A stretch of 58,847 nucleotides of DNA from Frankiaceae bacterium. Lineage in GTDB: Bacteria > Actinomycetota > Actinomycetes > JAFAQI01. The DNA is taken from the NCBI GenBank assembly GCA_019239875.1, contig JAFAZI010000119.1, positions 1 to 58,847 on the forward strand. Reading direction: 5' to 3'. The position numbers were made by a program, and so were the translations under genes. This document shows, in pieces, positions 44,349-56,199 of this stretch; the stretch's first letter is position 1; the number at the start of each line of letters is the position of its first letter. The notes beneath the pieces were generated by a model that saw only the letters and a program-made list of their open reading frames with translations, was not told the origin of the DNA and did not search any database.

Positions 44349-44852
44349 ATGCGCATGCTTCGCCGCGGTCTGATCGCCACCGTCCTCGTTGCCGGACTTG
44401 CCGTCGCCACAGCGACACCAACGGCGGCGACGCCACATCCCGGCCACGGCGTCAAGGTTCGATCCTTCGATCAGCAGCTGCTCAAGAAGGTCAACCACGC
44501 TCGCAAGGCGCACCACCTCGCCGCCTACACGTTCAGCCCGACGCTATGGAAGATCGCCCACAGCTGGGCGAAGCACCTGGCCGCCGACGGCGCCCTGTCG
44601 CACCGGGCAAACCTGACGACGGTCGTGCAGCAGAAGTGTTCGAAGCATTCGAAGGCCGGCGAGAACGTGGCGTTCGTCTCAGGCGGTACCGGCCAGCTCA
44701 AGGCGCTGTATCACCAGTACGTCGCGGACAAGGCGCATCGCGCCAACGTCTTCAGTGACACCTTCACCCACATCGGCATCGCCTCGATCAAGAAGACCGT
44801 CGGCGGCCAGGTCCAGGAGTGGAGCGTCATGGACCTCGCCACGCGCTGCTGA
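44349..44852 (+). CDS. Secreted CAP-domain protein (SCP/PR1, YkwD-like), copy 1
   Basis: 167 residues from ATG 44349. Signal peptide 'MRMLRRGLIATVLVAGLAVA' ends near 'TPTAA'. CAP fold: 'DQQLLKKVNHARKAHHLAAY', 'LWKIAHSWAKHLAADGALSH' (first His), 'AGENVAFVSGG' (Glu), 'VADKAHRANVFSDTFTHIGI' (His), 'EWSVMDLATRC'. Two Cys could form a disulfide. Bacterial CAP proteins bind lipids or act at the cell wall. A paralogue lies 1.5 kb downstream at 45890. Confidence 0.93.
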   Translation: MRMLRRGLIATVLVAGLAVATATPTAATPHPGHGVKVRSFDQQLLKKVNHARKAHHLAAYTFSPTLWKIAHSWAKHLAADGALSHRANLTTVVQQKCSKHSKAGENVAFVSGGTGQLKALYHQYVADKAHRANVFSDTFTHIGIASIKKTVGGQVQEWSVMDLATRC

Positions 44853-44886
44853 GCGTGGCGGACCTCGTGGGGTCCAAGCGGCGTCG

Positions 44887-45747
44887 CTACTTGAGCAGCT
44901 TCGACATCCGGCGGTCAGCCAGCGGCTTGCCGCCGGTCTGGCAGGTCGCGCAGTAGTCCAAGGCCGAGGTCGCGAAGGACACCTGGCGGACGACGTCGCC
45001 GCACACCGGGCACTTCTGGCCGGCTCGGCCGTGCACCCGCATCGACAGCTTCTTCTCCGCCTTCAGCTCGCCGGCGTTGAGGCCCTTGGCGCGTTCGACC
45101 GCCTCGGACATCGTGGTGCGCAGCGCGTCGTACAGGACCTCGACCTCCGCCTCCGTGAGCGAGGAGGCGAGCTTGAACGGCGACATCTTAGCCACGTGCA
45201 GGATCTCGTCGGAGTAAGCGTTTCCGATCCCCGCGATCACGCTCTGGTCGCGCAGCACTCCCTTGATCTGGGCACGATTTCCGGAGAGCAACTCCGCGAA
45301 CGTGGCAAGGCTGAAGGCGTCGGTCAGCGGCTCCGGACCTAGCCGCACGATGCCGGGCACGTCGTGCGGGGACCGTACGACGTACACCGCGAGCCGCTTC
45401 TGCGTCCCAGCCTCGGTCAGGTCGAATCCGGCGCCGTTGTCCAGATGCACCCGAAGGGCGATGGGGTTCTTGCCCGGCTTCGGTGGTGCCGGCGGCAGCG
45501 ACTCCCGCCAGTGCAGCCACCCCGCGCGTGACAGGTGAGTGATCAGGTGCAGGCCATCGACGTCAAGATCGATGAACTTGCCGTGACGAGACGCGCCGGT
45601 GACGGTCAGTCCGGCCAGGCTGGAGATCGGCGGGTCGAACGTCTTGACCACCGCGATCGAGGCGACGTCCACGCGCGCCACGACGCGGCCGACCGCCCGG
45701 TCGACGAGGAAGTCGACCAGCGCCTCCACCTCCGGCAGCTCGGGCAT
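44887..45747 (-). CDS. Formamidopyrimidine/endonuclease VIII-type DNA glycosylase
   Basis: 286 residues. N-terminal catalytic 'MPELPEVEALVDFLVDRAVG' (Pro nucleophile after Met removal, then Glu). The HhH domain contains 'QSVIAGIGNAYSDEILHVAK' and the C-terminal zinc finger is 'CPVCGDVVRQVSFATSALDY' followed by 'CATCQTGGKPL' (C-x2-C...C-x2-C). Removes oxidised bases and cleaves abasic sites. The finger lacks the usual 'GRxTxYCP' consensus of MutM, so it is one of the divergent actinobacterial Fpg/Nei paralogues. It sits between two secreted CAP genes. Confidence 0.93.
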   Translation of the reverse strand: MPELPEVEALVDFLVDRAVGRVVARVDVASIAVVKTFDPPISSLAGLTVTGASRHGKFIDLDVDGLHLITHLSRAGWLHWRESLPPAPPKPGKNPIALRVHLDNGAGFDLTEAGTQKRLAVYVVRSPHDVPGIVRLGPEPLTDAFSLATFAELLSGNRAQIKGVLRDQSVIAGIGNAYSDEILHVAKMSPFKLASSLTEAEVEVLYDALRTTMSEAVERAKGLNAGELKAEKKLSMRVHGRAGQKCPVCGDVVRQVSFATSALDYCATCQTGGKPLADRRMSKLLK

Positions 45748-45889
45748 TCGTCCAGTTTGCCCGGCTATCGCTCGATTGGGCGCAGGTACCGGCGCCCGCG
45801 ATCACCCGATCGGAGCAGTCGCCGATCCGGCCAACTGGCCGATGACAGACAGGTATCGCCCCTCGCCCCACGTGAAAAGAGCCTGCTCG

Positions 45890-46396
45890 ATGAAAGCCCG
45901 ACTCCTTGGTGCCGCGCTCGCCGCGGCTGCCAGCGTGTCGATGGCGGCCGCCGTCGCCCCATCCGGTGCCGCAGCAGCCGGCAAGCATCCCGCCGCGGCG
46001 TCGTACGCCCGGTCATACGACGCGCACCTGCTGGCGCACAGCAACACGGTCCGGTCGTCGAGGCACACCCACGACTACGTAATGAACCACAAGCTGTGGG
46101 TCATCGCACATGCTTGGGCCAAGCACCTGGCAAAGACCGGCACGCTCGCGCACAACCCACGCCTGTCCCAGCGGATCAGCAAGGTGTGCCCGCACTGGAC
46201 CGCGATCGGTGAGAACGTCGGGATGGTCACAGGCACTGACGCCAACACGCTGTTTCAGGCCTATATGCGCAGCCCCGAGCACCGCGCGAACATCCTGAGT
46301 CGGCACTACCGCCAGGTCGGCATCGCGACGGTGAAGACCACGGTCAACGGCCAGGTCGTCCAGTGGGACGTCATGGACTTCGGGAACCACTGCTAG
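45890..46396 (+). CDS. Secreted CAP-domain protein, copy 2
   Basis: 168 residues from ATG 45890. Signal peptide 'MKARLLGAALAAAASVSMAA' ends near 'SGAAAA'. CAP motifs parallel copy 1: 'LWVIAHAWAKHLAKTGTLAH' (His), 'WTAIGENVGMVTGTD' (Glu), 'YMRSPEHRANILSRHYRQVG' (His) and 'QWDVMDFGNHC' at the end. The two proteins share spacing and C-terminal Cys, so they arose by duplication, now separated by the Fpg/Nei gene on the other strand. Confidence 0.93.
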   Translation: MKARLLGAALAAAASVSMAAAVAPSGAAAAGKHPAAASYARSYDAHLLAHSNTVRSSRHTHDYVMNHKLWVIAHAWAKHLAKTGTLAHNPRLSQRISKVCPHWTAIGENVGMVTGTDANTLFQAYMRSPEHRANILSRHYRQVGIATVKTTVNGQVVQWDVMDFGNHC

Positions 46397-46439: not shown

Positions 46440-47816
46440 GTGCAACTTCTCGCCTATGTCGCATTCATGGGGCTCCTCGCGTGGTTCGCGATGGGGCTGG
46501 GTCGCGGTCGCGACCACCTGCTGATCTTCTTCGCCGCCACCGCCTTCCTGTTCTACGGCTTCCGCGCGACGTTGTTCGTCGCCGGTATGGACACCCCGGA
46601 GCCGGGGCAGTTCTTCGTGAAGGACATCCCCCACACGCTTGCGGTGACCCTCGGGACCTTTGTGGTCTTCCTCGGCGCCGCTGCGATCGCATTCCGCACG
46701 TGGTTCTCACTCGACGGACTGAAGCTCCCGGTCTTCCGCCGCGACGAGCCAGACCCCAGACGAATGCTCAGGTGCACGGTCGCGCTGACGGCACTGGGGT
46801 CGGTGGTCACGTTCGCGTTGCTGTACCACTTCGGCTCTCCCGGCGAGATCGTCCGAGCCGCCAAGCTCAGCCACGGCCTGGCCGGGCTGTATGTGTTCAA
46901 GCAGTTCGCGGCACTCGGCGCGATCGTCGCCGCTGCCACGGTGATCGACGCGCGGCGGCTGCGCGCCAGCCGCAACATCGTGACCGCCGGTCTGGTCTGC
47001 ATGGCAGCGGACTGCTACTACGTCTACCTCTGGGGGACTCGCACCATCGCGGTGATCTCGATCGCGATCGTCGTCATCGGCTGGCGGCGCCCGCAGCTGG
47101 TCGCCGCGGAGCAGGCTGGTGACGCGCCGCGGCTCGCGAAGCCGCGACGATCGGTGTTCCGTTACATCGTCGCGGGACTGCTCGTCCTCATCGTCGCGAT
47201 GGCGCTGCGAGCCACGCGTGAAGGCACGCTCAACCACGGCCGTGACATCGCGGCCGAGAACGCGAACATCTGGCGGCGGATGTCGCTGTCGCTCAACGCC
47301 ACCTACCTCGACGCCTCCATGCTCGCCGTCCAGGACCAGGACCGGAACTATCACTACCCCCGAGGGGCTGACTTCGTCTCCGGCGCCAAGTCCGTGGTGC
47401 CCGGGTTCATCTGGCACGGCAAGGACACCCAGACCTCCGGGGCGCGGTTCCGCCACATCTACCAGCCGGCGATCGTCAACGGCTGGCCGGTCGGGGCACC
47501 CACCGCGTGGCAGCTGAACTTCGGCCCGCTTGGCTTGCTGCTCGGCGGCTATCTGAGCGGCATGGCGCTCGCCGCGCTCGCCCGAAGTCGACAACGCTGT
47601 GCAACCAGCGGGTTCAACCTCGCCGTCTCAATGGTGACCGCGACCGTGGTGCTCCAGATGGGGCTCAATCCAGACACGCCGCAGCGCGTGATCCTGTGGT
47701 GGGTGCCGCTGGTGATCGTTGGACGATTGATGGGCGCGCCGCCATCTCGTCAGATCACGCCGAGCATCATCCCGAGCACGCGCCAAGTGACCGCCCGCGC
47801 GGCCGCGTCGGTCTGA
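46440..47816 (+). CDS. Polytopic membrane protein, probable Wzy-like glycan polymerase
   Basis: 458 residues with about ten to eleven membrane helices and a large extracytoplasmic loop near residues 265-350 ('LNATYLDASMLAVQDQDRNY', 'SGAKSVVPGFIWHG', 'HIYQPAIVNGWPVGAPTAWQ'). This organisation and 'LYVFKQFAALGAIVAA' / 'WGTRTIAVISIAIVVIGWRR' are typical of oligosaccharide repeat-unit polymerases (O-antigen polymerase family), which are poorly conserved in sequence. Its neighbours (glycosyltransferases, sulfotransferases, flippase) support this. The stop lies in a 14-bp palindrome shared with the convergent glycosyltransferase gene. Confidence 0.75.
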   Translation: MQLLAYVAFMGLLAWFAMGLGRGRDHLLIFFAATAFLFYGFRATLFVAGMDTPEPGQFFVKDIPHTLAVTLGTFVVFLGAAAIAFRTWFSLDGLKLPVFRRDEPDPRRMLRCTVALTALGSVVTFALLYHFGSPGEIVRAAKLSHGLAGLYVFKQFAALGAIVAAATVIDARRLRASRNIVTAGLVCMAADCYYVYLWGTRTIAVISIAIVVIGWRRPQLVAAEQAGDAPRLAKPRRSVFRYIVAGLLVLIVAMALRATREGTLNHGRDIAAENANIWRRMSLSLNATYLDASMLAVQDQDRNYHYPRGADFVSGAKSVVPGFIWHGKDTQTSGARFRHIYQPAIVNGWPVGAPTAWQLNFGPLGLLLGGYLSGMALAALARSRQRCATSGFNLAVSMVTATVVLQMGLNPDTPQRVILWWVPLVIVGRLMGAPPSRQITPSIIPSTRQVTARAAASV

Positions 47817-47822
47817 GTCGAC

Positions 47823-48941
47823 TCAGATCGAGTCGAGGAAGTCCCGGATCCGAGCTGAGAACGACCGCAGGTCGTACGCGCCAGCGGCCCGAGAGATCTC
47901 GTCGTGGTTCCAGTTCATCTGCTCCGACTGGCTCATGGCAGTGCGGAGCGAGTCAGCCGACTGGTCACCGAAGAAGATGCACGTCTCGTTCTCGAGCAGC
48001 GAGATCGTGGCGCCGCCGGCCCGGAAGGCGATCGTCGGCGTGCCGCACGCCATGGCTTCCAGCGGCACCAACCCGAAATCGTCTTCGCTGGTGAACAGCA
48101 CGGCCTGCGCGCTTTGGTAGAGGTGACGCAGCTGGTCGCTGTCCTGCCAGCCGACGAAACGCACGTTCGGCGGGGCGATCGCCTCCATGCGAGCGCGGTC
48201 ACGACCGTCGCCTGCCACGACCAGCTGGTGATCGGTCCCGCGGACCGCTTCGATCGCTAGGTCGAGCCGCTTGTACGGCTCGGCGATCCGACCGACCCAC
48301 AGGAAGTAGTCCTGCCGCTTCTCCGGCGAGCGGTAGAAGCGATGGGTGTCGACCGGCGGCGGGATGATCGCGGAAGCGTCCACGCCATAGCACTCGAAGA
48401 TCCGGTCCCGCACGATCGAGTTCGTGGCGATGTAGTGATCCGCCGCACGCGCAGCTTGCCGGTCGCGGCGGCGCAAGTAGCCGCGCGACAACGTCAGTCC
48501 GAGCTGGAGGTGCGGGCGCACGCTGTTGGCGTACATCGCCTTCCCGCTCCACACCTGGCGCAGCGGCGAGTGGCAGTACACGACCAGCTTTCCGGTGCAC
48601 CGGACATGATGGGCGAACGCGTACGACGACACCAGCACATTGCCCTCGATCGGGGGCAGGTTCGAGACCATCCGGGGCAGGGCCGGAGCGAGGTGCCGGT
48701 AGGTGTCGGGGCGAATCAGCGACTTCGACAGCAGCGTGGTCGTGTGGACCGGGAAGCCGACGTCGCGCATCGCCTCATCGGATCCCCCGAGCACGGCGAC
48801 CGGTGAGCCGGGAAGGGAGTCCGTGGCGAGCGCGGCGACGACGCGCTCGGCGCCACCGCCAGTGAACGCGAAGTCGTGCAGGATCGTCCAGGGTTCCTTC
48901 GTCGCCCGAGTGAGATCGCTCGCGATCGCAGTCGACGTCAT
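47823..48941 (-). CDS. GT4-family glycosyltransferase
   Basis: 372 residues. Retaining GT-B glycosyltransferase: N-terminal 'ILHDFAFTGGGAERVVAALA' (acceptor side, GGGAE loop), 'LVVYCHSPLRQVWSG', then 'YFLWVGRIAEPYKRLDLAIE' and 'QLVVAGDGRDRARMEAIAPP', and the sugar-nucleotide motif 'TSEDDFGLVPLEAMACGTPT' with a complete E-x7-E. It likely transfers a hexose to a lipid-linked glycan at the inner face of the membrane. It converges on the polymerase gene. Confidence 0.92.
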   Translation of the reverse strand: MTSTAIASDLTRATKEPWTILHDFAFTGGGAERVVAALATDSLPGSPVAVLGGSDEAMRDVGFPVHTTTLLSKSLIRPDTYRHLAPALPRMVSNLPPIEGNVLVSSYAFAHHVRCTGKLVVYCHSPLRQVWSGKAMYANSVRPHLQLGLTLSRGYLRRRDRQAARAADHYIATNSIVRDRIFECYGVDASAIIPPPVDTHRFYRSPEKRQDYFLWVGRIAEPYKRLDLAIEAVRGTDHQLVVAGDGRDRARMEAIAPPNVRFVGWQDSDQLRHLYQSAQAVLFTSEDDFGLVPLEAMACGTPTIAFRAGGATISLLENETCIFFGDQSADSLRTAMSQSEQMNWNHDEISRAAGAYDLRSFSARIRDFLDSI

Positions 48942-49209
48942 CGCGCTCCCGTCACCCCCCGCCCTCGGTCATCGCTCGACACTTTCGCCAGCGACCTGCT
49001 CGACCCCTGCAACTCGCAGAATCGCCGCGACTGATCATATTCGACCTGATAACCGTCCGCTTACTCCACGCAAATCGATCCAGCGCCCGGCCAGGAGGCG
49101 GGCACGAAACCACATTGCGACATGAAAGCATCTTTTGCGCCCAAGTACGCTGTGGTGGGCACGCCGACCGAGAATCGAGAGCCAGCCGTCCAGTGACTGG
49201 AGCGTCAAC

Positions 49210-50115
49210 ATGACTTCCGGCGTGCCCGACTTCATCGTCGCCGGTACCGCGCGCAGCGGCACGACCGCCGTCGCGGACACCTTGCGCGACCATCCCGAGG
49301 TCTTCGTCACGACACCGAAGGAACCGCACTACCTCGGGCTCGGCCGGCGCGCTCCGGCGTACACCGGACCTGGCGACGCCGAGACCATCAACCGTGCCGT
49401 CGTGGTCGAGGAGGCCGATTACCTGCGGCTGTTCGAGCCTGCCCAACCCGGTCAGATCCGGGGTGACGGCTCCTCGTCCAGCCTGTACTTCCATGAAGCG
49501 GCTATCCCCGTGCTCCAGCGGCTGAACCCTGATGTCAAGGTCGTCATCCTGCTGCGCGAGCCGCTGGCCCGCGCGTACTCCGCGTACCAGTACCAGCAGA
49601 TGCGCGGCTTCGAGACGGCAACCTTCGCCGAGGCCTTGGCGGCGGAGGACCAGCGCATCGCCGACGGCTGGCACCACATCTGGCACTACCGCCGCATGGG
49701 CGAGTACACGCCTTCGGTCAAGGCCTACCTCGACGCGTTCGGCCGAGAGCAGGTCGGGGTGTGGTTCTACGACGACATCGAGCGCGACGCCGGGGCGGTG
49801 CTGCGTGACGTGCTCGCCCACATCGGTGCGACTCCCGATGCCACCGACCGCGAGGCGTTGCGGCGGATCAACGTCTCGGGCGAGGCACGCAGCGAGCTGA
49901 TGCAGCGCGGGATCCACGCGCTGACCCGTCAGGTGGCGGTCCGCGAGGCCATCAAGAAGGTCCTGCCGTATCGGGCGCGAGAGGCGATCCGCCGGCTCAA
50001 CCTCAAACCGACCGGCCTGCCGACGGACGTCGGCGCTGAGCTGCGCGAGAGCCTGCGCCCGGACGCTGTCGCGCTCGAGGAACTTCTCGGCCGGCCAGTG
50101 CCGTGGCGGTCGTGA
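49210..50115 (+). CDS. PAPS-dependent sulfotransferase 1
   Basis: 301 residues from ATG 49210 (GGAG seven bases upstream). 5'-phosphosulfate loop 'FIVAGTARSGTTAVADTLRD', 3'-phosphate motif 'KVVILLREPLARAYSAYQYQ' and 'LYFHEAAIPVLQRLNPD' before it. This is the Sulfotransfer-type fold acting on carbohydrate or lipid hydroxyls. The 267 bases before it (48942-49208) are AT-richer than the rest and presumably hold the promoter of the four-gene run sulfotransferase-GT4-sulfotransferase-flippase. Confidence 0.93.
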   Translation: MTSGVPDFIVAGTARSGTTAVADTLRDHPEVFVTTPKEPHYLGLGRRAPAYTGPGDAETINRAVVVEEADYLRLFEPAQPGQIRGDGSSSSLYFHEAAIPVLQRLNPDVKVVILLREPLARAYSAYQYQQMRGFETATFAEALAAEDQRIADGWHHIWHYRRMGEYTPSVKAYLDAFGREQVGVWFYDDIERDAGAVLRDVLAHIGATPDATDREALRRINVSGEARSELMQRGIHALTRQVAVREAIKKVLPYRAREAIRRLNLKPTGLPTDVGAELRESLRPDAVALEELLGRPVPWRS

Positions 50116-51281
50116 GCGCAGCCCGCCGAGTCCTCCAGGTTCACAACGGGCAGCTCACCCGTGGCGGTTCGGACACCGTCATTGCTCACGAGGCTCACCT
50201 GCTGCGCTCCGCCGGTCTCGAGGTCGAGCAGTACATCCTCCCCGCCACCGCCTCGCCCGGGCTAGCCGGCGCGATCAAGCCGACGTACAACCGCGCCGCG
50301 ATGAAGGCGGTCGCAGACCGGATCGCAGCGGTACGCCCTGATGTCGTCCACGTCCACACGCCGTTCCCGTTGCTGTCGCCGTGGGTGTTTCGCACTGCAA
50401 GGAGCGGGGGGTGCGCAACGGTCGGGACCTTGCATTCCTACCGCTACTCGTGCATCGCGGCGACCGCGATCCGCGACGGCGCGGAGTGCACCGACTGCTT
50501 CGGTCGCACCGTCAAGTGGCCGGGGGTGGTCCATCGCTGCTACCACGACAGCGCAGCAGCAAGCGGCGCCCTGACCCTCAGCCTCGGCGTGCACAAGGGG
50601 CTCGGCACGTTTCGGCACCACGTCGACCGGTTCATCGCGCTGAGTGACTTCGCCCGCGCCGCCGCCATTCGTGACGGCCTCCCTGCGGCGAAGGTCGTGG
50701 TGAAGCCGAACAGCGTCCCCGATCCGCAGCCAGATCTCGGCGTCGTCGGCGACGGCGTGCTCTTCATGGGTCGGCTGGTCCCGCAGAAGGGCGTCGGCCA
50801 CCTGCTCGAGGCGTGGCGCAGGGCTGGTGACACGCTGCCGCCACTCGTGATCGCGGGGGACGGGCCGATGCGGGCGGAGGTCGAGGCAGCCGCCGCGACC
50901 GTCAACATCAGCTTCCTCGGTTGGCTGGAGGAGTCCGACCTTGAAGCCCACCTCGCGCGGTGCCGCCTCGTGGTGGTGCCGTCACTGTGGCAGGAGGGTG
51001 GCCAGCCGCTGACCATGATCCGCGCCCTCGCGGCCGGCCGGCGAAGCGTGGTCCCCGACCTCGCGAACTTCGGCGGCCCGCACGTCGACAGTGGAGCGGT
51101 GCGTACCTATGCGACTGGCGACGCAGACTCGCTCGCGGCCGCGGTGCGCGAGGCCTACGACGGCGCCGGCGATCGATCGATCCGTGAGGCCGCCCGCAGC
51201 GCATACGCGGCGGCGTACTCCGATCCCGCCAACCAGCAGGCCTTGCTTCGCGTCTACGCCGACGCGCTCGGTCAACGGTGA
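50112..51281 (+). CDS. GT4-family glycosyltransferase
   Basis: 389 residues from GTG 50112, which overlaps the sulfotransferase stop (GTGA); GTG 50103 is an alternative. N-terminal domain 'VLQVHNGQLTRGGSDTVIAH', 'VHVHTPFPLLSPWVFRTARS', a Cys-rich insert 'CIAATAIRDGAECTDCFGRT', then 'VLFMGRLVPQKGVGHLLEAW' and 'LVIAGDGPMRAEVEAA'. The nucleotide-sugar site reads 'SLWQEGGQPLTMIRALAAGR': the first Glu of E-x7-E is present but the second position is not Glu, so donor binding may differ. Middle gene of the sulfotransferase operon. Confidence 0.9.
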   Translation: MSAARRVLQVHNGQLTRGGSDTVIAHEAHLLRSAGLEVEQYILPATASPGLAGAIKPTYNRAAMKAVADRIAAVRPDVVHVHTPFPLLSPWVFRTARSGGCATVGTLHSYRYSCIAATAIRDGAECTDCFGRTVKWPGVVHRCYHDSAAASGALTLSLGVHKGLGTFRHHVDRFIALSDFARAAAIRDGLPAAKVVVKPNSVPDPQPDLGVVGDGVLFMGRLVPQKGVGHLLEAWRRAGDTLPPLVIAGDGPMRAEVEAAAATVNISFLGWLEESDLEAHLARCRLVVVPSLWQEGGQPLTMIRALAAGRRSVVPDLANFGGPHVDSGAVRTYATGDADSLAAAVREAYDGAGDRSIREAARSAYAAAYSDPANQQALLRVYADALGQR

Positions 51282-51333
51282 GCCGGACCGTCGCCGATAC
51301 GATCAGCCCCACGCCGCAGGAAGGGAACGAGCC

Positions 51334-52182
51334 GTGACGCGGTTTCGAGTCCCCGACGTCGTCGTCGCCGGCGCCCAGAAGGCCGGAACGACGGGCCTGT
51401 TCCGAAGCCTCGGCGCTGCGCCAGGAGTCGCGACCCCGACCGCGCAGGAAGCGATGTTCCTGCACCGCGACCAACCCTGGAACGACTGGTGCGAGGAGTA
51501 CGTCGGCGAAGCCTTCCCGCCTGACCACCTGATCGCGATCAAGCTCGCCACCCTGATCTACTTCCCGGACTCGATCGAGCGGCTCCGGAGGCTCAATCCG
51601 AGCGCGAAGCTGCTCGTCGTCCTTCGCCATCCGGTCGACCGGATGGTGAGCCTGCACCAGTTCCTGACCGCGATCGGCATCGAACGACGACCGCTCGCGG
51701 ACGCCCTGGCGGCCGACGACCTGATGCCGGGCAGCGGATACCGGCTTGCGACCTACAGCGGCGGCAGCCGATACGCCGACGCGCTGCAGAGCCTCAGCCA
51801 GACGGTCTCCGCCGGGCAGGTCCTGGTGCAGTCCCAGCACGACGTCATGACCGCGGAGGGACTTGCCGACGTCGCCCGATTCGTCGGCCTTCCGGCAGCC
51901 ATCCCGCTGGTACGCGCCAACGAGTCCGGCGCACCACGCTCGGCTGCGCTCGGTCGCGTGCTGCAGAATCCGCGCGTCAAAGCGGCAGTCAGAACCGTCA
52001 TCCCCGCCGAACGGCGACAGCGAGGACGCACCCTCGTCCGCCGGCTGAACACCGGGAGCAAGCCGGCGACGGCCGGTCTGGTGCCTCCCGACCTGCGCGC
52101 CCGGCTGCTCGAGCGTCACGCGGTCGATGTCGACGCTGCCGAGGTCGCGCTGGGCCGAGCGCTGCCGGAGTGGCGCGCGTGA
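51334..52182 (+). CDS. PAPS-dependent sulfotransferase 2
   Basis: 282 residues from GTG 51334 (AAGGGAA upstream). 5'-phosphosulfate loop 'VVVAGAQKAGTTGLFRSLGA', then 'SAKLLVVLRHPVDRMVSLHQ' for the 3'-phosphate and 'DVARFVGLPAAIPLVRANES' near the C-terminus. It is only distantly similar to sulfotransferase 1, so the two probably modify different positions. Its stop overlaps the flippase start (GTGA). Confidence 0.92.
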   Translation: MTRFRVPDVVVAGAQKAGTTGLFRSLGAAPGVATPTAQEAMFLHRDQPWNDWCEEYVGEAFPPDHLIAIKLATLIYFPDSIERLRRLNPSAKLLVVLRHPVDRMVSLHQFLTAIGIERRPLADALAADDLMPGSGYRLATYSGGSRYADALQSLSQTVSAGQVLVQSQHDVMTAEGLADVARFVGLPAAIPLVRANESGAPRSAALGRVLQNPRVKAAVRTVIPAERRQRGRTLVRRLNTGSKPATAGLVPPDLRARLLERHAVDVDAAEVALGRALPEWRA

Positions 52183-53468
52183 ATCGACCGCGCGGCCCGT
52201 TTCGGCAGCGTGAGCTCCGGGCGCGAACCCGCATCGTCCTGACGGCGGCGGACCAGTTCATCAGCAGCTTGCAGAACTTCGCGCTGGTGATCTTGACCGC
52301 GCGCGCCGTGAGTGCGCGCGAGTTCGGCGCGTTCGCGTTGGTGAACGTCATCGTGATCCTGCTGGTCGGCCTGGTCCGAGCCGGGATCGGCGAGCCGATC
52401 CTGCTCGGCTACAGCGCTCGTACCGCTTCGGAGATTCGTCGAGTCGCGCCGATCGGCATGACCCTCACACTGGCCACCGGGCTGCTGATCGGGGGGCTCA
52501 CTTGTGGCATCGCCATGATCGTGCCGGACCCGCTGCACCAACCGCTGCTGGCGATGGGCGTGTGCGTCCCGGGACTCGTGCTCCTGGACTTCCAGCGGTT
52601 CCTCGCGATCGCCTGGAAGCGTCCGGTCACCCTGGTCGGGCTCGACTCAGCCTGGGTCGTCGTGTGGATCGTGGTGCTGGTCGTCGCGAAGCCGACAACC
52701 GCGTACGGCGAGATCCTCGCCTGGGGCCTCTCGGGCAGCGCTGTCGCCGTGGTGATGACCGGGGCCAAACCCATCGAGCTGGCCTCGCTGGCTCGCGCGT
52801 CGCGGGCCTGGTGGCGGGACCTGCGCCGAAGCGCGACATCGCTGGTCGCCGAGTTCGTCACGCTGAACTCCTCCAACCAGGTCTCGACGCTGCTGGTCAC
52901 CGGTTTCCTCGGGTACACCGCGACCGGTGGGCTGCGGGCGGCGCAGAACCTGCTCAGCCCGGTGTCGACGATCGGCAACGCCATGCGGATCGCGGTCGTA
53001 CCGGAAGTGATCCGAGCCGGCGGCAGCACCACGAAACGCGGCGCCAGGGTGCTGCTCGGCGGAACACTCGCGGCGGCGCTGATCGCGGGCGGCGCGTCAG
53101 CGGCGTTCCTGAGCCTGCCGGCCAGCGCGGGGCGCCAGCTGCTCGGTGCGACGTGGCACAACGCTCATCCCTTGTTGCTCGCGAGCGGGATCCGCGGCGT
53201 CTTCTTCGCCCTGACCTTACGCGGCACCATGGCGCTTCGCGCTGATCTGCGCCTGCCCACCCTCGCGTGGACCCGCGGCGTCTCGGCCGTCGTTCTCACG
53301 GTGGTGGTGGCAGCGTTCGCTGCGACCACAGACGTCAGAACGACAGCATGGGCGTTCGTCGGCTTCGCGGTGTTCCAGTGGCTGCTGTTCGAGGCCGCGG
53401 CTCGACGGCCGGCCCGCTCCACCGATGACGACCCGGCCCGACCAACCAGGCATGCGGCGCGCGGCTGA
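52179..53468 (+). CDS. Wzx-like polysaccharide flippase (MOP superfamily)
   Basis: 429 residues from GTG 52179 in a GTGA overlap. About twelve membrane helices. N-terminal 'TAADQFISSLQNFALVILTA' and 'ARAVSAREFGAFALVNVIVI' match the start of Wzx/RfbX-type exporters ('D...S..NF...ia.ar.l...eFG.f.l'), and 'GFLGYTATGGLRAAQNLLSP' is the typical mid-protein loop. It would flip the undecaprenyl-linked, possibly sulfated repeat unit outward for the polymerase at 46.4 kb. The gene ends the operon. Confidence 0.85.
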   Translation: MNRPRGPFRQRELRARTRIVLTAADQFISSLQNFALVILTARAVSAREFGAFALVNVIVILLVGLVRAGIGEPILLGYSARTASEIRRVAPIGMTLTLATGLLIGGLTCGIAMIVPDPLHQPLLAMGVCVPGLVLLDFQRFLAIAWKRPVTLVGLDSAWVVVWIVVLVVAKPTTAYGEILAWGLSGSAVAVVMTGAKPIELASLARASRAWWRDLRRSATSLVAEFVTLNSSNQVSTLLVTGFLGYTATGGLRAAQNLLSPVSTIGNAMRIAVVPEVIRAGGSTTKRGARVLLGGTLAAALIAGGASAAFLSLPASAGRQLLGATWHNAHPLLLASGIRGVFFALTLRGTMALRADLRLPTLAWTRGVSAVVLTVVVAAFAATTDVRTTAWAFVGFAVFQWLLFEAAARRPARSTDDDPARPTRHAARG

Positions 53469-53721: not shown

Positions 53722-54099
53722 ATGGAGCAACCGTCGTTCGAGAACCTGCTCGGGATCCTGCAGGACCACTTCAATCCGCGGGAGGAGGGCTGGCTCTGGG
53801 TCGCCACATTCATGGACGGCGCTGAGGGCGGCGTCGTGAACCAGATCGAAGGCGACTACGGCGAACCGATCAGGATGGCCGACAGCCTCGCCTACATCAT
53901 CAACGGCTGCGGTGCCGACCGCGCCCACCTCGCGCTGTGTCGACGTGGGGGCCGGCCGCGAGAAGTCGATCGCGAGTTCTGGCGACGCCTACGCGATCAG
54001 ATCGACGCCGACGTGCTGCAGGACATGATCGTGTTCGACCGGCGCGGGACCTGGTCGATGCGCGGCGAGGACGAAGGAGCCGACGCATTCGCGGTCTGA
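53722..54099 (+). CDS. Small conserved-looking protein, possibly JAB/RadC-like
   Basis: 125 residues from ATG 53722. Sequence 'SFENLLGILQDHFNPREEGW', 'LWVATFMDGAEGGVVNQIEG', 'AHLALCRRGGRPREVDREFW', 'ADVLQDMIVFDRRGTWSMRG'. The strand 'AHLALCRRGGRPREVDREFW' followed by 'DMIVFDRRGTWSM' resembles small actinobacterial JAB-like proteins, but I cannot see an intact metal-binding motif. Codon use fits a real gene. Function unknown. Confidence 0.65.
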   Translation: MEQPSFENLLGILQDHFNPREEGWLWVATFMDGAEGGVVNQIEGDYGEPIRMADSLAYIINGCGADRAHLALCRRGGRPREVDREFWRRLRDQIDADVLQDMIVFDRRGTWSMRGEDEGADAFAV

Positions 54100-54192
54100 A
54101 CGAGTTCACCCGCGACATCCCTTGACGGATGGCGCCGACTGATCGAGCGTGCTCTGTGGTGGCCCAGCCCATGGGCCGTAGCAGGGGGCACT

Positions 54193-56199
54193 GTGACGAG
54201 GCAACGACGACGGCGCCTCGTCGGCGTTGCCAGGTGCAGCGTGATCGCACTCGCCGCAGCCTCTCTGGTCAGCCTGGCACCGTCGGCGCACGCCGCGACA
54301 ACGGGAACCGTCGCGACCTGGGGTGCCAACGACATGGGTCAGCTCGGCATTGGAACGGCAGGTGGTCGCACGGTGCCAGGCCCGGGTCCGGCGGACCCGG
54401 GCATCACCGCGATCGCCGGCGGACGCGAGCACGTGCTGGCATTGCGAGCGGACGGCTCGGTGCTCGCCTGGGGTCGCAACGACTACGGCCAGGTCGGCGA
54501 CGGAACGAAGACGAACCGCACCACGCCCGTCGTCGTGACGCCGCTGCCCGCCGCGACGCAGGTGTTCACCGGGCACTACCACTCGATGGCGCTGACGGCG
54601 AGCGGCGCGATCTACGCCTGGGGCAACAACAACGTCGGGCAGCTCGGCCTCGGTGACAAGACCGGTCGCACCCGCCCGGTGCAGGTGCCGGTGGGCGCTC
54701 CGATCGCGAGCGCCGACGGCGGCGAAGGACACACGATCGCGCTGGCCACAGACGGGACCGTCTGGACCTGGGGCAACAACGCGTACGGCGAGATCGGCGA
54801 CGGCACCACAACGCTGCGGACGACCCCGGTCCACGTGAGCGGGTTGAGCGACGTCGTGTTCGTGGCCGCGGCACGTGACTCCAGCTACGCGATCACCTCG
54901 ACCGGCGCGCTGTACTCCTGGGGCCTCAACGACTCCGGGCAGCTCGGTCTGGGCGACACGACGAATCGCACCCGCCCGACCCTCGTCGCGATTCCGCCGG
55001 TGCGATCGATCAGCGCCGGCGCCTTCCACGCGATCGCGGTGCTGACCGATGGGACGGTCCGCGGCTGGGGCTACAACGCGTACGGCAACGTCGGCGACGG
55101 CACGACGGCGAAGCGGCTCTCGCCCGTCATCGTGAAGGGGCTGTCCAACGCGACGTACGTCGAAACCGGCCGTGACACGAGCTTCGTCACCACCGCCGAC
55201 GGCGTCCTCCATGCCTGGGGCCGCAACGATGTCGGACAGCTCGGCGACGGGTCGACGACCAACCGACCTGCACCGGTCACCGTCCCGGGGATCACCGGGG
55301 TGACCCAGCTCGGCGCCGGACGCGACTACGCCGCGGCGTTCGTGCCGGGCGCGCCGGACATCCAGCCACCGACGGTGCCCGGCACCCCATCGGCGGTCAG
55401 CTCCTCACCCGGCACGGTGACCGTGAGCTGGCCCGCATCCACCGACGACCGGGCCACGACACTCACGTACTCGGTGTTCCGCGATGGCGGTGCCCAGGCG
55501 GTGGGGGCGGTGAGCAGCGCGTCGACCGGCACCGTGTCGTTCACCGACACCGGACTCGTAGGCGGCAGCACGCACACCTACCAGATCAGTGCGAGTGACG
55601 GCGCCAACTCGAGCGGATTGAGTGACGTCTCCAACCAGGTGACCGTGCAGGCGGGCCCGCCGACCGTCTTCAGCGACGACTTCACGGGCGGTCTCGCTGG
55701 CTGGTCCTCGACGAATCTGACGGTCGACCAGACGACGTTCCCGCCGGCCGGCTCGCCGCCGAGCATCCGCGGCTCGACCAGCGCCGCCCCGCAGTGGGCG
55801 ACCCACTCGCTCGGTGGCTCCTACCCGTCGTTGTGCGCGCAGGCGGACGTCGACCTGACCTCGAACTCCACGCCCGGAGTCCTGTTGCGGTTCCGTTCGC
55901 CATCCGCCGGCGTCGCACGGGTCTATCTGACCGCTGCTCACCTCTTGGCGCTGCGAGCCGACGGGTCGGGACAGACCTTCGTGTCCGCCACCCCACTGCC
56001 CGCGGGGGCATGGCACCGCGTGCAGCTGTGCTCGACGGTCGGCACCGCGGGAGCGCTGTCCGCGTCGCTCGACGGCACGCAGGTCATCAGCGCCACGTCG
56101 TCGACCGGAACTGCCCCGATATCGCTGCTACAGGTCGGCGACAACACGAACGTCACGATGACGGTGAACTACGACAACGTGGCAGTCGCCACCAACTGA
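54193..56199 (+). CDS. Secreted seven-bladed RCC1-repeat protein with FnIII and C-terminal beta domain
   Basis: 668 residues, GTG 54193 with AGGGGG upstream. Signal peptide to 'PSAHA' (about residue 34). Seven RCC1 blades follow, each with a WGxNxxGQLGxG-type motif: 'WGANDMGQLGIG', 'WGRNDYGQVGDG', 'WGNNNVGQLGLG', 'WGNNAYGEIGDG', 'WGLNDSGQLGLG', 'WGYNAYGNVGDG', 'WGRNDVGQLGDG'. Then one fibronectin type III domain (about 395-492) and a LamG/concanavalin-like domain of about 170 residues ('VFSDDFTGGLAGWSSTNLTV' onward). It is a surface-exposed binding protein; ligand unknown. Confidence 0.92.
   Translation: MTRQRRRRLVGVARCSVIALAAASLVSLAPSAHAATTGTVATWGANDMGQLGIGTAGGRTVPGPGPADPGITAIAGGREHVLALRADGSVLAWGRNDYGQVGDGTKTNRTTPVVVTPLPAATQVFTGHYHSMALTASGAIYAWGNNNVGQLGLGDKTGRTRPVQVPVGAPIASADGGEGHTIALATDGTVWTWGNNAYGEIGDGTTTLRTTPVHVSGLSDVVFVAAARDSSYAITSTGALYSWGLNDSGQLGLGDTTNRTRPTLVAIPPVRSISAGAFHAIAVLTDGTVRGWGYNAYGNVGDGTTAKRLSPVIVKGLSNATYVETGRDTSFVTTADGVLHAWGRNDVGQLGDGSTTNRPAPVTVPGITGVTQLGAGRDYAAAFVPGAPDIQPPTVPGTPSAVSSSPGTVTVSWPASTDDRATTLTYSVFRDGGAQAVGAVSSASTGTVSFTDTGLVGGSTHTYQISASDGANSSGLSDVSNQVTVQAGPPTVFSDDFTGGLAGWSSTNLTVDQTTFPPAGSPPSIRGSTSAAPQWATHSLGGSYPSLCAQADVDLTSNSTPGVLLRFRSPSAGVARVYLTAAHLLALRADGSGQTFVSATPLPAGAWHRVQLCSTVGTAGALSASLDGTQVISATSSTGTAPISLLQVGDNTNVTMTVNYDNVAVATN

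Follow-up and report, generated by a model that had tools for sequence, protein, structure and literature searches.

To our knowledge, sulfated polysaccharides have been seen as almost confined to animals, algae and cyanobacteria. For the xss cluster of Synechocystis PCC 6803 there is genetic proof that it makes the sulfated exopolysaccharide synechan, disruption of XssA suppressing both synechan accumulation and bloom formation (PMC8205485). In the capsule locus of Cobetia marina KMM 1449, sulfate has been shown chemically (PMC11766843). For an actinomycete, Actinoplanes missouriensis, a paper of June 2026 put forward the wps-1 cluster, with its two sulfotransferases, as a candidate locus for a sulfated exopolysaccharide (PMC13390465).

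The locus described here lies in a stretch of 58,847 nucleotides (the window), this being an entire contig of a 4.15-Mb, 206-contig genome. Its six genes, encoding a Wzy-like polymerase, a Wzx-like flippase, two GT4 glycosyltransferases and two PAPS-dependent sulfotransferases (ST1 and ST2), were all found where an earlier note, made from the sequence alone, had placed them, between positions 46440 and 53468 (Table 1). The note was also correct in taking the source to be an actinomycete, since a sulfotransferase from another member of the same taxonomic family is identical to one from a metagenome-assembled genome named "Frankiales bacterium". On gene identities, motifs, the co-inheritance of polymerase and sulfotransferases, and the presence of PAPS and primer genes, all read from sequence, the locus probably serves as an accessory module for making a surface or extracellular polysaccharide that bears sulfate, by the Wzx/Wzy-dependent route.

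Table 1. The six genes of the locus, with gene starts refined for all six (positions in the window).
Feature	Coordinates	Strand	Evidence
Wzy-like polymerase, 458 aa	46440..47816	+	At least 7 predicted membrane helices; relatives
GT4-A glycosyltransferase	47823..48941	-	PF00534 4.3e-21, PF13692 6.4e-21
ST1, PAPS-dependent sulfotransferase, heparan-sulfate-sulfotransferase-like type	49210..50115	+	Pfam, PDB, motifs, tree
GT4-B glycosyltransferase	50112..51281	+	PF13692 1.6e-19; GTGA overlap with ST1
ST2, second PAPS-dependent sulfotransferase	51334..52182	+	Pfam, PDB, tree
Wzx-like flippase, 429 aa	52179..53468	+	Homologs; GTGA overlap with ST2

The resemblance to wps-1 is clear in outline: both come from an actinomycete, both unite Wzx, Wzy and a pair of sulfotransferases in one cluster, and for both a sulfated polysaccharide is predicted; an adjoining APS kinase-family gene is also listed among the likenesses of wps-1. 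However, the window locus lacks the GT2, GT26, GH26, methyltransferase, kinase-like protein and Wzz of wps-1, and identity of the two clusters was therefore rejected. The combination typical of wps-1 (GT26, GH26, kinase-like protein and Wzz, with two sulfotransferases) is instead found on two other contigs. C100 (15559-21510; L010) has Wzz, Wzy_C, an unassigned protein of 390 aa where the kinase-like gene would be, a sulfotransferase and the start of a GH26-like gene, and C83 (L014) has the end of a GH26-like gene, a flippase-like gene, GT26, a sulfotransferase and GT2. To judge from the gene set, these are probably the wps-1 counterpart of this genome, split by a contig break within the GH26-like gene. 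A similar set is present in one piece (L118) in a relative from the family. By gene content the window locus is thus the second two-sulfotransferase locus of its genome, and of a different type. The view of the earlier note that sulfated polysaccharides are little known in Gram-positive bacteria needs correction: wps-1 is a two-sulfotransferase Wzx/Wzy candidate with a probable counterpart in this very genome, and, being already published, it means that the idea of a sulfated glycan is not new in actinomycetes.

The xss cluster likewise combines Wzx/Wzy with two sulfotransferases, and ST1 and ST2 are distantly like XssA (3e-12 and 5e-13). It differs in having eight glycosyltransferases, its own primer, regulators and outer-membrane export, and neither Wzy nor Wzx of the window shows detectable similarity to XssF/XssH. 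The Cobetia marina locus resembles the genome studied here in having PAPS genes (cysQ included) and a sulfotransferase inside a surface-polysaccharide cluster, but it is ABC-transporter dependent and Gram-negative.

The genes ST1, GT4-B, ST2 and Wzx form one unit, because there are two GTGA overlaps (50112-50115, ST1/GT4-B, and 52179-52182, ST2/Wzx) and a gap between GT4-B and ST2 of only 52 bp, which carries a GGAAGGG-like ribosome site. This bears out the four-gene coupling claimed before. The Wzy gene is upstream of the unit, on the same strand but separate from it, and GT4-A sits between Wzy and ST1, convergent with Wzy; being on the minus strand, it rules out a single operon of all six genes. 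That Wzy and GT4-A are outside the four-gene unit is a point the note did not make.

Alone, the Wzy sequence matches no Pfam or NCBIfam model, and as a single query against 395 genomes of the class it gave one marginal match. A tblastn search against plasmids gave just two matches, each covering >80% of Wzy, these being from Pontibrevibacter (annotated as an O-antigen polymerase) and Leisingera (hypothetical), with BLASTP values of 5e-33 and 4e-34. The plasmid homologs were needed to build a profile, and the profile from these three sequences retrieved further relatives in the phylum. The resulting family has a conserved motif block, HGADF...NGWP...W..NFG..G..LG..LSG, and five of its ten members match PF14296 (O-ag_pol_Wzy), weakly and below the cut-off. 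By homology, the protein is therefore a predicted Wzy-type polymerase, belonging to a rare polymerase family that is linked to sulfotransferases, and this is the new element of the present analysis.

The Wzx-like protein is the predicted flippase, on homology and context. Alone it finds no Pfam model at E<=0.1 (PF13440 at 0.22), but in its homolog set PF13440 is found in 7 of 16 (best 4.2e-5) and PF01943 in two. Relatives are present in 76 of the 395 genomes of the class and often adjoin Wzz/BY-kinase-like proteins. PDB sequence searches with Wzy and Wzx, singly and as profiles, gave no matches, and AlphaFold models from single sequences were too poor for use; with pLDDT of only 45 (Wzy) and 43 (Wzx), no fold search was made. 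Both GT4 enzymes have strong Pfam support, and the closest relative found for GT4-B (39%) is in a locus of the Wzy family, L154.

In this superfamily sequence hardly separates polymerases from ligases, and it is conceivable that the Wzy-like protein is a ligase of the O-antigen-ligase type. The module would then sulfate and export a short glycan that is not polymerised, or decorate an existing wall polymer (teichoic-acid-like) or a glycolipid. The locus has only two glycosyltransferases and no Wzz or primer, and a ligase-type gene would suit attachment to a Gram-positive wall. Against this, relatives carry the annotation O-antigen polymerase or fit PF14296, which is matched by five members and the ligase model by one, and several adjoin Wzz/BY-kinase chain-length genes and primers. 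We therefore consider a ligase unlikely, and a polymerase the better reading.

The strongest case for a sulfated glycan comes from outside the window, from the neighbourhoods of the polymerase relatives. Apart from the window, nine Wzy-family loci were found at E<=1e-10, in Actinomycetota and on the two Rhodobacterales plasmids. All nine contain a sulfotransferase, and seven contain two or more. By comparison, of 36 control neighbourhoods of window-Wzx homologs (flippase loci), three contain a sulfotransferase and none contains two. The Fisher values (2.5e-7 for at least one sulfotransferase and 8e-7 for at least two) are indicative only, because loci and controls are neither phylogenetically independent nor matched. 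The chromosomal loci L141, L142, L143 and L144 have two or three sulfotransferases each, confirmed by Pfam. A second search in another order, made as a fresh test, found one each in L154 and L155 and two in L156, and a more remote Wzy relative, L158, also has two. The sulfotransferase profile used for counting contained sequences from some of the test loci, the identity of which rests on Pfam, while those of L154-L156 and L158 rest on the profile and pairwise similarity only. The remote relatives L145, L146 and L157 have no sulfotransferase in their loci, so sulfation is not a requirement of the polymerase fold as such. In L158 (7963-11037) there is also a 1025-aa protein that is similar to the window Wzx and is matched by the Wzy profile, an apparent flippase-polymerase fusion, adjoining the two sulfotransferase-like genes.

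The plasmid loci (Pontibrevibacter NZ_CP049814 and Leisingera NZ_CP083559) have, next to the homologous polymerase, two sulfotransferases, two GT4s and a flippase-like gene, and the Leisingera locus, like the window, has a GT4 in convergent orientation to the polymerase. They differ in that both have a primer and a BY-kinase, and Leisingera also a Wza-like exporter. A one-to-one six-gene cassette common to the window and Rhodobacterales was considered and rejected: only Wzy matches end to end, the sulfotransferases and GT4s being distant relatives, alike at family level only. Co-inheritance of the flippase was also rejected, the window Wzx having no detectable match in the loci of the closest Wzy relatives, both plasmids included (L141, L142, L154, L155, L128 and L129).

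Pfam supports both sulfotransferases, ST1 more strongly than ST2. ST1 matches PF00685 (1.8e-11) and also PF13469; ST2 matches PF13469 (6e-6) and PF00685 (7.7e-5), with scores only slightly over the curated cut-offs. In the PDB, both match the bacterial sulfotransferase 3rnl (1e-44 for ST1 and 3e-14 for ST2), and they also match heparan sulfate 3-O-sulfotransferases (3A1 at 4e-5 for ST1, and 5 at 9e-7 for ST2). ST1 has the motifs GxxRSGTT and LREPxxRAxSAY and a catalytic-type Glu, and in an alignment G12, G17, T18, T19, E38, R116 and S124 are invariant in ST1, ST2 and relatives, so that both have the predicted 5' and 3' PAPS-binding motifs and catalytic-type Glu. By sequence they are nearest to carbohydrate sulfotransferases of the heparan-sulfate type.

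A contig scan with the sulfotransferase alignment yielded only five loci. In the tree, ST1 falls in a group made up solely of sulfotransferases from Wzy-family loci (L141b, L142a, L154 and L155; support 95/90), while ST2 pairs with L142b, the second sulfotransferase of locus L142 (support 95/94). Relatives of ST1 from Wzy-family loci reach 43% identity, as against 34% for the best found by ST1 search in the taxonomic family. Since their sisters in the tree lie in Wzy-family loci, Wzy, ST1 and ST2 behave like a unit that is inherited together. Tentatively, one may go further and suggest a previously undescribed Wzy family specialised for sulfated repeat units, moving with its sulfotransferases among bacteria as far apart as several actinobacterial lineages and, on plasmids, Rhodobacterales, which would make sulfated polysaccharides widespread and predictable from sequence in Gram-positive actinobacteria; we regard this as possible, at somewhat less than an even chance. 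With a polymerase family as marker of sulfated-glycan loci, producers could be found from sequence, there would be bacterial sources of heparin-like polymers, and the occurrence of sulfated polysaccharides in actinomycetes, as yet predicted for Actinoplanes, could be put to the test in several lineages.

Bacterial proteins of PF00685/PF13469 may also act on a small molecule or lipid, as do mycobacterial Stf0/Stf3 and rhizobial NodH, and ST1 and ST2 might merely be neighbours of glycan genes; another sulfotransferase of the genome, on contig C3 beside menB, suggests a menaquinone substrate. We consider this very unlikely for ST1 and ST2, given that ST1, GT4-B, ST2 and Wzx overlap or nearly do so, that both sulfotransferases have their sisters in the Wzy loci of other taxonomic families, and that neither groups with the menB-linked enzymes. 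The C3 gene (28587-29489; L013, L049) is a PF00685 sulfotransferase conserved in the family beside a menB-like gene (also L023, L031, L026 and L033), with a gene resembling hotdog thioesterases and, in L033, one resembling cytochrome P450; it is possibly a sulfated menaquinone locus like M. tuberculosis stf3/cyp128. A different sulfotransferase (L009, 10942-12972; L022, L083) forms a divergent pair with a conserved protein (about 310 aa), both in members of the family and in a Frankiales metagenome-assembled genome.

Returning to the sulfated polysaccharide, the other functions needed are found elsewhere in the genome. A search for PAPS synthesis genes, proposed in the earlier note, found the single APS kinase of the genome (1.8e-56) and a CysD-family protein (PF01507) on contig C13, where genes read as cysD, cysN and cysQ lie about 2 kb from the kinase (CysN and CysQ-like from gene calls only), so PAPS can be made. 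This part of C13 (L018, L019, L012) is a large surface-glycan cluster, which also has glycosyltransferases, a PF02397 primer, a BY-kinase-like protein, Rml-like genes, an ABC exporter and a sulfotransferase. Contig C198 has a cysH-type gene and a sulfite-reductase-like gene. As the note had also said, there is no priming transferase in the window, and two PF02397 and two PF00953 proteins are on other contigs. Similarly, a Wzz/BY-kinase co-polymerase is absent from the locus but present on C13 and C100.

For the substrate, the sequence of events, the sulfation of the product and the choice of primer, we infer the following. The primer, either PF02397 (on C13 or C122) or WecA-like PF00953, would be encoded outside the locus and would start the repeat unit on undecaprenyl phosphate, and GT4-A and GT4-B would add sugars to give a short repeat unit. 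On the cytoplasmic side, ST1 and ST2 would then sulfate it at two different positions or on two different sugars, with PAPS as donor; PAPS would be supplied by CysD-CysN-CysC and PAP cleared by CysQ, all of them encoded on C13. The Wzx-like protein would flip the sulfated unit and the Wzy-like protein polymerise it outside, with chain length probably set by a Wzz/BY-kinase encoded elsewhere, for example on C13. Counted against this are that Wzy and Wzx are below Pfam cut-offs when searched alone and gave poor AlphaFold models, that the locus has no primer or Wzz, that GT4-A is outside the operon, that ST2 is barely above cut-offs, that the control loci are phylogenetically unmatched, and that three remote Wzy relatives lack a sulfotransferase. 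A sulfated Wzx/Wzy glycan, as first proposed, nevertheless remains the best reading, strengthened by Wzy-sulfotransferase co-inheritance, the PAPS genes and the primers on other contigs; what has fallen away is the single operon and the lack of precedent.

The interval between conserved Fpg/CAP-type genes and FhaA holds different genes in relatives, and Wzy was not found in the other 12 genomes of the order, which is poorly sampled (13 genomes); these two observations fit an acquired accessory locus. They would also suit a horizontally acquired gene set that is non-functional or decaying, but with six intact frames, precise overlaps, kept motifs and a composition close to that of the host (codon GC3 of 0.84-0.88, like or slightly lower than the 0.84-0.90 of the rest of the contig) this can hardly be entertained. 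Immediately before the locus (44349-46396), the Fpg gene lies between two related genes for secreted CAP-domain proteins. On the other side, before fhaA (53722-56199), come a small protein with no Pfam match and a secreted RCC1-repeat protein, the latter being 69% identical to its counterpart in the relative L173.
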